A DNA stretch of 33,493 nucleotides from a virus, in IMG/VR virus record IMGVR_UViG_3300042691_038864, positions 1 through 33,493 of that record. The stretch is one strand, 5' to 3'. The notes below the pieces were generated by a model that saw only the letters and a list, made by a program, of their open reading frames with translations, ran no database searches and was not told where the DNA came from. The first letter of the stretch is position 1. Each line of letters opens with the position of its first letter. Made by a program: the position numbers and the translations under genes. This document shows positions 20,164 to 23,104 of this stretch, piece by piece.

Positions 20164-20916
20164 ATGTCTTTTCCATATTTGATTCAGGGTTCCAACATTG
20201 TGATTGTGATTGGGACTAATTCACACACGATCAATCGGGCGCATATTGCCTACGATAAGATTGTAGAGGCCATCAAGGCCAACGACTGGCAGCAGGTTCA
20301 GGACCTGGTTGAACCCAAGAAGATCGTGCTCAACTACGGTGCTGGCAATATCAGCATCCAGGGCGACAAGATGTTCTGGAAGGATCAGGAGTTCTACAAT
20401 GTTTTGGCTCTGCGCCTGATCAAGATGTTCCAGGAAGGCTTCCCCATTGAGCCCATGATTAACTTCATGGAGAACCTTATGCAGAACCCCAGCAAGCGAG
20501 CTGTGACTGAGCTGTACGGTTTCCTGGAAAAGGGCCAGCTGCCTATTACTTCCGACGGACACTTCTTGGCTTACAAGAAAGTTCGCGAAGACTACAAGGA
20601 TGTGTACAGCGGTACTTTCGACAACAGCGTGGGCAAGACGGTGGAGATGGAACGCAACCAGGTGGATGACGACAAGGATCACACCTGCAGCACTGGCTTG
20701 CACTTCTGCAGTCAGGATTATCTGAATCACTTTAGTGGCGAACGGGTGATGATCCTCAAGATCAATCCTCGCGATGTGGTTTCGATTCCCGCTGACTACA
20801 GCGACACCAAGGGCCGCTGCTGCCGGTACGAAGTGATTGGCGAGCTGGGCGTGGATCCGGCTGAAGCGTTCACTGCGGCAGTGCAGGAAAATGCCAACAC
20901 TGAGGTGGGGGGCTAA
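20164..20916 (+). CDS. rIIB: rIIB-like protein, 250 aa
   Basis: AGGAGA precedes the ATG. The protein has the rIIB family features: an N-terminal small domain (IVIVIGTNSHTINRAH), a helical middle (NFMENLMQNPSKRAVTELYG) and the conserved C-terminal part LPITSDGHFLAYKKV, then STGLHFCSQDYLNHF and VVSIPADYSDTKGRC. T4 rIIB likewise has the GLHF-type block near its C-terminus. It follows rIIA and shares its unclear role in lysis and superinfection or defence. Codon use is richer in C/G-ending codons than in the neighbouring AT-rich homing gene. A strong hairpin covers its stop codon. Confidence 0.85.
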   Translation: MSFPYLIQGSNIVIVIGTNSHTINRAHIAYDKIVEAIKANDWQQVQDLVEPKKIVLNYGAGNISIQGDKMFWKDQEFYNVLALRLIKMFQEGFPIEPMINFMENLMQNPSKRAVTELYGFLEKGQLPITSDGHFLAYKKVREDYKDVYSGTFDNSVGKTVEMERNQVDDDKDHTCSTGLHFCSQDYLNHFSGERVMILKINPRDVVSIPADYSDTKGRCCRYEVIGELGVDPAEAFTAAVQENANTEVGG

Positions 20917-20927
20917 CCCCACCTCAG
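20900..20927 (+). terminator. Hairpin over the rIIB stop codon, probable terminator
   Basis: A perfect 11-bp stem CTGAGGTGGGG / CCCCACCTCAG encloses the loop GGCTAA, which contains the stop codon. Only a short TT follows, so termination may need Rho or the stem may protect the mRNA end. It directly precedes the tRNA locus. Confidence 0.65.
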
Positions 20928-20931
20928 TTGT

Positions 20932-20953
20932 GCGCCCGAAGCTGAATGGTTGT
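20932..20953 (+). pseudogene. 5' fragment of a disrupted tRNA
   Basis: GCGCCCG followed by AAGCTGAATGGTT reads as a tRNA 5' acceptor strand and half of the D-arm. Its exact acceptor complement CGGGCGC with ACCA is found at 21901-21911. The rest of the D-arm and the 5' anticodon stem are missing, so this tRNA cannot be restored by simple joining. Confidence 0.7.
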
Positions 20954-21027
20954 GCAGGTGTTACATAATGGTAGTGTCGGGTGCTCTAACCACCCAGGAG
21001 GGAGTTCAATTCTCCCCACCTGCACCA
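20954..21027 (+). tRNA. tRNA with CUA anticodon (candidate amber suppressor)
   Basis: The acceptor GCAGGTG pairs with CACCTGC, followed by A73 and an encoded CCA. The D-arm is short (ACA/TGT around TAATGGTAG). The anticodon stem GGGTG/CACCC is perfect and encloses the 7-base loop CTCTAAC, so U33 is correct and the anticodon is CTA at 20986-20988, which reads UAG. The T-arm is GGGAG/CTCCC with loop TTCAATT and the variable loop has four bases. The loop begins CUCUAA, as in classic amber suppressors. The amino acid cannot be read with confidence: G1-C72 and A73 do not fit bacterial glutamine tRNA. It lies between two fragments of another tRNA and overlaps the end of an antisense homing gene. 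Confidence 0.82.
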
Positions 21028-21846
21028 TTTTCCGTCTAATATTAGCATTGGTCTATATCCTGCTTCTTTGTATGCTATAAATTTATCAATCATATTTTTT
21101 GGATCTAGTGTAAAATTAGATTTTATTTCAATAATTAAATTATTAATGGTTATGTCAGGAATTGCAACTCTAATTGTATTAGATTGTGAATCTAAGTATT
21201 TGATTCTTAAACTTTCAGTTTGATAAAATTTTCTTTTATTGTCTAAAATTTGATACATTAGCAATTCGTAAGAGGATCGATAATAGTGATAGTTCCCTGT
21301 CCAATCAATATGTGTTCCACATTTGTATTTTTTGTTTATAGAGTTTGGGGGAACCCCTTTACGAAAGACTCGTTCTTTACCAGCTTCTTTTAAGTTTCTT
21401 CTTTGTATATTAAGTTGCTTTAAAAAAGCAGGCATGTGTCCGTTAGGCAAAGGTATATTGAAAAATTCTTTAATCTCAATTGAGGAACATTTTTCAACTT
21501 GATACATGTGTATTAAGCGTTCTCTTAAATCATTAAGTTGATTTTCTGTATCAGGATAAACACCCAAACTAATGTTAAACCATTTACATAAATTAGTTAC
21601 AAATCTTTGTTTACCTGGCGAATCCCAAAAAGATACGTTAGAGTTCTCTTTAGAAAGTACTCTTCCAGTAATAGGAGAAATAGTTATTTTACAGATTTTT
21701 TTAAAAGATAATTTCAACTTAACTGCTTTTTTAAATTCTTCTGATCTCGGACCTCTGCTATTAGCGCATTTTCTGGAACAAAATACACCATTACTGCTAT
21801 GTAATGTTTGACATTTAGGACAATTTTTTTGATTTAAGTTTTCCAT
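20986..21846 (-). CDS. PD-(D/E)XK homing endonuclease inserted in a tRNA locus, 286 aa
   Basis: The start is placed at ATG GAA AAC, since the longer frame upstream is only antisense tRNA. The N-terminus has a zinc-ribbon-like Cys set (C9, C12, C23, C27: CPKC and FCSRKC). The C-terminal part carries RSSYELLMYQIL, then IPD-x8-EIK (P230, D231, E240, K242), the PD-(D/E)XK nuclease core. I-Ssp6803I, a homing enzyme of a cyanobacterial tRNA intron, has the same fold class. The gene is strikingly AT-rich compared with rIIB, suggesting recent transfer. Its last ~13 codons are antisense to the intact tRNA, and its TAG stop is the complement of that tRNA's CTA anticodon. TATAAATA lies five bases before its ATG. 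Confidence 0.82.
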   Translation of the reverse strand: MENLNQKNCPKCQTLHSSNGVFCSRKCANSRGPRSEEFKKAVKLKLSFKKICKITISPITGRVLSKENSNVSFWDSPGKQRFVTNLCKWFNISLGVYPDTENQLNDLRERLIHMYQVEKCSSIEIKEFFNIPLPNGHMPAFLKQLNIQRRNLKEAGKERVFRKGVPPNSINKKYKCGTHIDWTGNYHYYRSSYELLMYQILDNKRKFYQTESLRIKYLDSQSNTIRVAIPDITINNLIIEIKSNFTLDPKNMIDKFIAYKEAGYRPMLILDGKWCRWGELNSLLGG

Positions 21847-21851
21847 AATAG

Positions 21852-21859
21852 TATTTATA
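21852..21859 (-). promoter_or_regulatory. Perfect T4-type late box TATAAATA (minus strand)
   Basis: This is an exact TATAAATA followed by CTATT and the start ATG of the homing endonuclease gene. With T4-type spacing, the transcript would start on the A of ATG. No Shine-Dalgarno sequence is present. Confidence 0.65.
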
Positions 21860-21866
21860 CCAATTA

Positions 21867-21911
21867 CTCTAAAACCCCGGGACGTGGGTTCGAGTCCCAC
21901 CGGGCGCACCA
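21867..21911 (+). pseudogene. 3' fragment of a disrupted tRNA
   Basis: From CTCTAAA (anticodon loop), then ACCCC, GGGAC, the T-arm GTGGG/CCCAC with loop TTCGAGT, then CGGGCGC and ACCA. The acceptor pairs perfectly with the fragment at 20932. If the loop is read with the standard 5-base stem, its anticodon is also CTA; a shifted reading gives TCT (Arg). CTCTAA is shared with the intact tRNA's anticodon loop at 20984-20989. Confidence 0.72.
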
Positions 21912-21920
21912 ACTATTTTT

Positions 21921-22118
21921 ATGTATGATTTATCAAGCTATCATGGCTGTGTAACTGAATGGAATAAATGGTTCGCATGGTACCCTGTCACTACTATTTC
22001 TAAAAAGCGTGTGTGGTTAGAATGGTGTTATAAACGAACAGTATTTGAATGGTCTTGGGAAGGGTTAAAAATTGATAAATATCAATACGCTAACATTTTT
22101 GATATACTAGGAGAATAA
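21921..22118 (+). CDS. Small Trp-rich protein, 65 aa, member of a local paralogue family
   Basis: This short protein is unusually rich in Trp and Tyr (TEWNKWFAWYPV; WLEWCYKR) and ends KYQYANIFDILGE. The ending resembles EQYATMF in the 22685 protein and ERYATMF in the 22928 protein, so the three are probably distant paralogues. No Shine-Dalgarno sequence precedes it. Its end carries the AGGAGA that serves the next gene. Function is unknown. Confidence 0.6.
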   Translation: MYDLSSYHGCVTEWNKWFAWYPVTTISKKRVWLEWCYKRTVFEWSWEGLKIDKYQYANIFDILGE

Positions 22119-22119
22119 T

Positions 22120-22707
22120 ATGACGTAGATTACCGAACTACTTGCAAATGACCTGATTTTTCATTTCAACAAGAAACATTTAGAAGACCCAACTATCCCA
22201 ATGTGGACCATCAAGGCACGTGGGCGTTCTTATTATGTTAACCACGTCTCTTGCGAAATGCCCTGGAGCACAAAAGAAACACCTGACTCCAATCACACCA
22301 AGGGCAGCATCAAAATTCGCAAATGTGTGTTGCGTATTGATCAAGATAATTGTGCAACAATTACCAAACCTACCTCTAATGACATTGCTCGTCTCAAGTA
22401 TAAAAAACCGCCCATCAGAGTTTTGTATGGCGCCTTGTATGCAGACAGTGTGAATCGAGCCGTTGAAAATCATCAGCTCAAACAGGGCAAGACCCTGCTG
22501 GTTAAAGGCATTTGCGGCAACAACTTTTATATCAGTGAATTCTACAAGGATACGGATATAACGCTGCTGACACTAACTTTACCATCTTATGCCATGCGAA
22601 TTTTGAACCCTTACGAACAATACTATCGTTTGTATGATGAGACCGAAGATGATGAGATTTGGGAGATTGAGGAGTACGAAGACGATGAATCAGACGATGC
22701 CGAGTAA
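22120..22707 (+). CDS. Phage protein of 195 codons with in-frame TAG at codon 3
   Basis: ATG at 22120 has an AGGAG seven bases upstream, but codon 3 is TAG (22126-22128). The frame then stays open for 193 more codons: ITELLANDLIFHFNKKHLED, PTIPMWTIKARGRSYYVNHV, then WSTKETPDSNHTKGSIKIR. The stretch between the TAG and the first internal ATG (22201) looks like genuine coding, and from memory similar N-termini (N-K-x-H-x-x-DPT-x-P-W) occur in related phage proteins. The ATG at 22201 has no ribosome binding site. The gene therefore seems to need TAG suppression, which the nearby CUA tRNA could provide. The C-terminus is very acidic. Function is unknown. Initiation at a non-ATG codon after the TAG, or a mutation, are alternatives. 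Confidence 0.7.
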
Positions 22708-22921
22708 AGTGCCTAATATAAGGCACAAACACCAAATTGTAAAATTTGATGCATACAGTTGGGAAGGCAAGCTGGGTGAAGTTTCTGAATGGTGTTGTGA
22801 AAATTTTGCTGATAAACAATCATGGTGGATAGACTGGCAAGGAATAAGTAGCCGCAAAGAATGGTTCATAAGCACTGATAATGAACAATACGCTACCATG
22901 TTTGCATTGAGATGGAGCTAG
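22685..22921 (+). CDS. Small Trp-rich protein, 78 aa, paralogue of its downstream neighbour
   Basis: The start at 22685 overlaps the previous gene and follows GAGGAG by ten bases; 22697 is an alternative. The core (GEVSEWCCENFADKQSWWID; ISTDNEQYATMFALRW) matches the next ORF (EIVDWC...FDQHEQWLID; ITSNERYATMFVLRW). The gene ends TAG and continues in the same frame with CAG TAG ATG into that paralogue. A short hairpin GTGCCT-AATATA-AGGCAC lies near its start. No known domain. Confidence 0.6.
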   Translation: MNQTMPSKVPNIRHKHQIVKFDAYSWEGKLGEVSEWCCENFADKQSWWIDWQGISSRKEWFISTDNEQYATMFALRWS

Positions 22922-22927
22922 CAGTAG

Positions 22928-23104
22928 ATGCAAAAATATATAATCTCATCCAATAAATCCAACTCAGTAATCGAAATAGTTGATTGGTGTGTGTTAACTT
23001 TTGATCAGCATGAACAATGGCTAATTGATATTGTAAACGGTTGTCCAACACTGATAACCAGTAATGAGCGGTATGCTACTATGTTTGTATTGAGATGGGG
23101 TTGA
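22928..23104 (+). CDS. Small Trp-rich protein, 58 aa, tandem paralogue
   Basis: The frame from ATG 22928 to TGA 23102-23104 encodes a shorter copy of the preceding protein, sharing WC near the start, QWLID and ERYATMFVLRWG at the end. It is in the same frame as the preceding gene, with only TAG CAG TAG between, so amber read-through would give a two-domain fusion. GGAG lies ten bases before its ATG, so independent initiation is also possible. Confidence 0.6.
   Translation: MQKYIISSNKSNSVIEIVDWCVLTFDQHEQWLIDIVNGCPTLITSNERYATMFVLRWG

Follow-up and report, generated by a model that had tools for sequence, protein, structure and literature searches.

Identity of the CUA tRNA

A phage-borne tRNA with the anticodon CUA raises the question of which UAG codon, if any, it serves. 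The window analysed here spans an entire IMG/VR record (33,493 bp) and, judging from its rIIA, rIIB and clamp loader genes, comes from a large tailed phage. ARAGORN located one tRNA in it, exactly at 20954-21027 (+) and with anticodon cta, and this tRNA (tRNA-B) matched the Rfam model RF00005 over its full length with 53.8 bits (gathering 29; E 1.6e-10) under sensitive filters, scoring over the gathering cut-off as a canonical elongator tRNA; default speed filters dropped it from the same search, and relaxed filters recovered it. The sequence-only reading had described a CUA tRNA with encoded CCA at this position, which both programs confirm, and had named rejection of the fold by a covariance model as refuting, a rejection that did not occur given the RF00005 match.

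Inspected by eye, the structure comprises a fully paired acceptor stem (GCAGGTG/CACCTGC, 7/7), a D-stem ACA/TGT, an anticodon stem with 5/5 pairs (GGGTG/CACCC) closing the 7-base loop CTCTAAC, and a T-arm GGGAG-TTCAATT-CTCCC, followed by discriminator A73 and the encoded CCA; its remaining features are ordinary (GG in the D-loop, a TTC T-loop, two bases at 8-9). Direct reading of the fold thus bears out the earlier statement that the stems pair well around CTCTAAC, and the 5-bp stem together with the 7-base loop fixes the anticodon as CUA, that of a UAG suppressor. The label tRNA-Pyl is what ARAGORN assigns to any CUA anticodon, from the anticodon alone. An exact-match search of IMG/VR with two stretches of tRNA-B found no exact copy.

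A swapped segment around tRNA-B

tRNA-B sits within remnants of a second CUA tRNA (tRNA-A), which the earlier reader had overlooked. The elements of this region are:

20164-20916, + strand: rIIB-like gene bordering the swap on its left side, divergence from 20904 (sister comparison)
20932-20951, + strand: tRNA-A-like 5' fragment, GCGCCCGAAGCTGAATGGTT, beginning GCGCCCG (compared with sister contigs)
20954-21027, + strand: tRNA-B, anticodon CUA at 20986-20988, CCA encoded (ARAGORN, Rfam tRNA model, structure by eye)
20986-21846, - strand: homing-endonuclease-like ORF (Cys-rich N-terminus, PD...EIKS motif, Lak phage similarity)
21867-21911, + strand: 3' remnant of tRNA-A, anticodon loop CTCTAAA through ACCA (sisters match again from 21867 onwards)

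Five sister contigs are ~99.4-99.9% identical to the window on both flanks and differ from it at 20904-21866. At this site they carry another small gene and an intact CUA tRNA, the 3' part of which equals window 21867-21911 (reading ...CTCTAAAACCCCGGG...CGGGCGCACCA), and the window carries instead tRNA-B and the minus-strand endonuclease-like ORF, identity restarting at the anticodon loop of tRNA-A. The ORF matches Lak phage proteins located among tRNA genes at 38-49%; its PD...EIKS motif makes it a candidate PD-(D/E)xK homing endonuclease, a Pfam search and single-sequence structure prediction were uninformative, and a pattern search of IMG/VR found no relatives. Taken together, these sequences suggest homing: the CUA tRNA already at the site would have been cleaved in its anticodon loop, and an unrelated tRNA, likewise with the anticodon CUA, would have arrived with the incoming DNA. 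The swap changed the tRNA sequence yet kept CUA, as expected if this anticodon is needed.

Two further details were recorded here. The endonuclease-like ORF stops at a TAG (window 20986-20988) formed by the strand opposite the CTA anticodon of tRNA-B, and the sisters' gene at the swapped site (L002 6762-7140), absent from the window, begins MPQAEVITQLEPNEIFVFGSNTAGRHGAGAA.

A gene with an in-frame amber codon near its start

A candidate target lies 1.1 kb downstream of tRNA-B:

22109-22113, + strand: Shine-Dalgarno motif AGGAG, placed for ATG 22120 (window sequence and relatives)
22120-22707, + strand: putative amber-gated gene, 195 aa if the TAG is read (307 IMG/VR relatives)
22126-22128, + strand: in-frame TAG at codon 3 (ATG ACG TAG ATT), conserved in relatives

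Behind the Shine-Dalgarno motif the gene starts ATG ACG TAG ATT ACC GAA, with 192 open codons after the TAG, and standard ORF calling places its start at 22201. The codon-3 TAG is present in all sister contigs, and the homologue in a 331-kb relative (L006; 74% in rIIB, about 45% in the amber-gene protein) starts ATG TCG TAG ATT GAA. The conserved core reads FHFNKKHLEDPTIPMW...PWSTKETPD..HTKGSIK. Searches of Pfam and PHROGs matched no known family, fold searches against the PDB gave weak ferredoxin-like/ACT/PII-like matches for residues 93-162 (Z about 7), BFVD yielded a single clear relative, itself an uncharacterised protein from a phage, and a pattern scan of genome contigs found no relative of the core domain; the gene reveals an uncatalogued protein family. 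As a separate observation, window 22634-23104 encodes a tandem pair of small, related proteins, with the C-termini YATMFALRWS and YATMFVLRWG and two in-frame TAGs between them.

Conservation of the early stop

A search of IMG/VR with the protein core alone, the TAG codon being excluded, brought up 307 relatives, and the 80 best were retrieved. The 110 loci collapsed to 68 distinct versions when cores more than 97% alike were merged. All 68 have an early stop in the unit's first gene, namely UAG in the amber gene (59), UAG in an upstream, coupled gene resembling peptidyl-tRNA hydrolase (PTH2-like; 8) or UGA (1), counts that rest on ad hoc scanners applied to IMG/VR contigs that are often fragments, several loci ending near the gene. 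Within the 59 amber genes, where the UAG stands among the first codons, it is codon 3 in 49. An A directly follows the UAG in 56/60 scored versions (L125 of that list was later reassigned), and a Shine-Dalgarno-like motif precedes the ATG in 57/60. AUU is the next codon in 43/60, ATA, ATC, ACT, AAC, GTA, AAG, TCG and AAA occurring in other relatives, and the residues directly after the UAG (I-E-x-A-C-K-D) are conserved.

In eight versions (L081, L082, L084, L085, L106, L120, L125 and Phosso) the gene stands behind a PTH2-like gene with UAG at codon 3-5, and in L079 both the amber gene and the PTH2-like gene contain a UAG. The PTH2-like gene of Agrobacterium phage Atu_ph07 has a UGA in this place (ATG ATT GGC GAA CAC TTT TGA), and the sole suppressor tRNA reported for this phage has the anticodon UCA (PMC6102473); stop type and anticodon thus change together. 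In RHph_I1_18, a core-domain gene with an amber codon adjoins a CUA tRNA.

An all-stop screen of all loci, in which any stop within 7 codons of an ATG had to be followed by a conserved ORF, returned two large clusters, both all-TAG: the amber-gene family (110 entries) and PTH2 (14). The TAA and TGA clusters were small, and in most of them the stop was immediately followed by a start codon or the ORF was antisense. In the L006 genome, the amber gene is the only early-TAG candidate with a strong coding signal.

Reading the inserted amino acid from aligned sense residues was tried and abandoned, since in none of the homologues does a comparable start offer a sense codon, and nothing about its identity follows from the alignment. 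At four loci (L116 3119, L117 5327, L123 5417, L130 4470) the amber-gene start (MA-TAG-IEYS) recurs at the head of a GIY-YIG-endonuclease-like ORF, which suggests homing into the amber gene itself.

Partner tRNAs in the relatives

At least 60 of the 68 versions, including nearly every version with complete flanks, have a CUA tRNA within the stretch retrieved (ARAGORN and simple scanners). It is on the strand of the amber gene in 58 of 59 counted cases, mostly upstream and at a median distance of 0.8 kb, and other anticodon-loop patterns are much rarer than CUA in the same loci. The tRNA of Phosso lies 4.5 kb upstream, that of L149 is far off, and that of L084 is a weak prediction; in L085, L125, L144 and L160, where the gene is close to the contig end, the fetched stretch showed no CUA tRNA. 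Eight other contigs (L097, L107, L114, L115, L122, L126, L131 and L145) at first seemed to lack one as well; this was an ARAGORN artefact, because the program misses or misreads odd T-loops and weak anticodon stems, and a custom scan found the tRNAs. Many CUA tRNAs of the class are missed by ARAGORN or mislabelled (Arg-TCT, Pyl).

Positions 31-39 are unpaired in 37/58 of the CUA tRNAs vs 11/314 of the remaining tRNAs at these loci (Fisher p 2.5e-26, kinship ignored), a weak-stem trend to which tRNA-B, with five full anticodon-stem pairs, is an exception. The pair G1-C72 and A73 are common in the class and the N-termini of the proteins are variable, neither of which points to a synthetase; the sequence-only reading was right to leave the amino acid open on acceptor identity. 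Some related jumbo phages (G011, G015) have a CUA tRNA and no member of the amber-gene family, and phage Summit carries a suppressor tRNA and showed no early-amber gene in our scan, so that not every suppressor tRNA is explained.

PTH2 genes of cultured phages

The same early UAG is hidden in the PTH2 genes of XacN1, RAS14, GAP32, ME3 and Phosso; PTH2 partner genes scored 39.1 and 72.9 bits against PF01981 (cut-off 23), which places them in the family. XacN1 encodes two CUA suppressor tRNAs, for which no target was found beyond annotated amber stops (PMC5852040). The in-frame sequence ATG AAG TAG ACC stands ahead of XacN1 ORF364, a fusion with PTH2 at its end, and is the sole early-TAG candidate with coding signal in that genome; a Met codon lies four codons after the UAG, which makes the XacN1 case ambiguous when taken alone. 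RAS14 has the same start, ATG AAG TAG ACC, and no start codon for the next 22 codons, which include conserved residues. In Acinetobacter phage ME3, PTH2 is preceded by ATG ACT TAG ATT, with a CTA tRNA some 0.45 kb upstream. The start in Cronobacter phage GAP32 reads ATG GCA CAA TAG, and a likely CUA tRNA, recognised by pattern only, lies 3 kb on. For Phosso, the annotated PTH2 start is a Met within the domain, the UAG lying upstream of it. The PTH2 of K64-1 begins at an ordinary ATG, with no gate.

In the mycobacteriophages Myrna, ScoobyDoobyDoo and Phabba (L252, L262, L263), GTG-TAG-GTG stands before PTH2, an ambiguous gate; a CUA tRNA lies within about 0.2 kb after PTH2, annotated as Ser or Arg in two of the records.

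Proposed mechanism

We consider it probable that tRNA-B and gene 22120-22707 form a two-part module, the tRNA being the trans half and the codon-3 UAG the cis half that gates the full protein. Sequence comparison shows in its favour that (i) the codon is conserved, (ii) it has a CUA tRNA as partner, and (iii) UGA is matched by UCA in Atu_ph07, and decoding of the UAG of gene 22120 by the tRNA is very likely on these grounds. From them we infer read-through itself, its timing, the charging of the tRNA and the role of the protein, and the module would be a regulatory switch. Of the roles that the sequence-only reading had associated with phage suppressors, read-through of TAG is strongly favoured, and recoding of the genome and late-gene read-through are not, the target appearing to be one start-proximal codon of one conserved gene.

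According to this model, ribosomes would start at ATG 22120 and RF1 would normally end the peptide after two residues, until the charged phage CUA tRNA competes with RF1 and inserts an amino acid at the UAG to give the full protein. The protein would then be made only after build-up of the suppressor tRNA. Such a gate would be gene-specific, because UAG stays a stop in other genes, and its start-proximal position would be economical, because failure costs only few residues. In other phages the gate would act on a PTH2-type peptidyl-tRNA hydrolase, either coupled or standing alone, and this placement makes it probable that the controlled products act on translation during infection. The wider proposal, that a switch made of a dedicated suppressor tRNA and an early stop in a translation-related gene is widespread in large phages of standard code, with stop and anticodon changing together, and explains orphan suppressors, seems to us reasonably likely.

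Alternative explanations

On the cis side, the main rival is that ATG-x-UAG is a leader minigene, an attenuator, with independent initiation of the protein beyond the UAG, at AUU or a different codon, and the tRNA being incidental. The frequent AUU (43/60) would suit it, as would the Myrna group, where the spacing fits the second GTG, and PTH2 is biochemically tied to short peptidyl-tRNAs. Nonetheless, the codon after the UAG varies and provides no consistent start, the Shine-Dalgarno motif is spaced for the ATG, the residues right after the UAG are conserved, in RAS14 such residues fall within the 22 codons that lack a start, and UGA is paired with UCA in Atu_ph07; we regard separate initiation as quite improbable. 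A further possibility concedes the decoding and denies regulation: the UAG would always be read, the arrangement serving, for example, to deny expression to hosts or rivals that lack the tRNA or to make the tRNA indispensable. Pairing alone needs only co-dependence, regulation being an additional step, but the confinement to one or two translation-related genes, the start-proximal codon and the deep divergence suggest control, although they are not decisive, and constitutive suppression is judged unlikely.

The other two alternatives concern the tRNA. Genome-wide reassignment of TAG (code 15), known from Lak and crAss-like phages, would make the amber gene one of many; a CUA tRNA and an in-frame TAG do exist here, and the endonuclease-like ORF resembles Lak proteins. 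However, TAG ends 4 of the 31 window genes and 15 of the 291 genes of L006, and the long window genes have no internal TAG. TAG is thus still an ordinary stop elsewhere, and on this stop usage we rejected global recoding, whose probability we take to be close to nil. That tRNA-B is mere cargo of a selfish homing-endonuclease cassette, serving no gene, would agree with its position beside the endonuclease-like ORF inside a broken tRNA and with its having no exact relative in IMG/VR; on the contrary, the corresponding position in cassette-free sisters holds an unbroken CUA tRNA, and amber genes in the relatives are accompanied by tRNAs with this anticodon, making pure cargo very improbable. The two-part module remains the preferred reading.

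Relation to known systems

In the autoregulation of RF2 (prfB), an early in-frame UGA is passed by a +1 frameshift. The proposed gate resembles it in that an early stop would control a translation-related gene, and differs in having a tRNA partner and no change of frame. Code-15 phages such as Lak and crAss-like phages reassign a stop codon with the help of a suppressor tRNA (PMC9523058, PMC13037316). As in these, a phage-borne CUA tRNA would decode in-frame UAG in phage genes; unlike in these, UAG here still stops other genes, and the apparent target is one conserved start-proximal codon in one unit. Closer cases are XacN1 (CUA, PMC5852040), Atu_ph07 (UCA, PMC6102473) and Summit (PMC9022506), which combine a suppressor tRNA with an otherwise standard code. 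The authors of the XacN1 and Summit reports searched past annotated stops and found no target (PMC5852040, PMC9022506), and those of Atu_ph07 left the targets open (PMC6102473). A search beyond annotated stops cannot see a start-proximal one, so such targets were invisible to that approach; candidates were found here for XacN1 and Atu_ph07, and none for Summit.

Among open-access papers, we found none that describes stop gates near the start of a gene together with a suppressor tRNA to match. Conserved stops of this kind escape gene finders as well as searches beyond annotated stops, and the present comparison supplies a candidate target for the suppressors of XacN1, GAP32, ME3, RAS14, Phosso and Atu_ph07. 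It also points to regulatory gating by a single stop codon in phages, which, if true, would be a ready-made natural amber switch. tRNAs with a short anticodon stem are reported to read stop codons (PMC13092985); the unpaired 31-39 in most CUA tRNAs of the class is a similarly weakened stem, the anticodon differing from those described there and tRNA-B keeping its five pairs.

Lak phages, in which TAG is recoded, showed no clear TAA gate at PTH2, Lak-B having MNI-TAA-IS upstream. Five Lak genomes (L258, L264-L267) have a tRNA with the anticodon UUA 0.6-0.7 kb upstream of PTH2, which could be an ochre counterpart. A UUA-anticodon tRNA also occurs in RAS14 (L300 2429-2503), in addition to its CUA tRNA.
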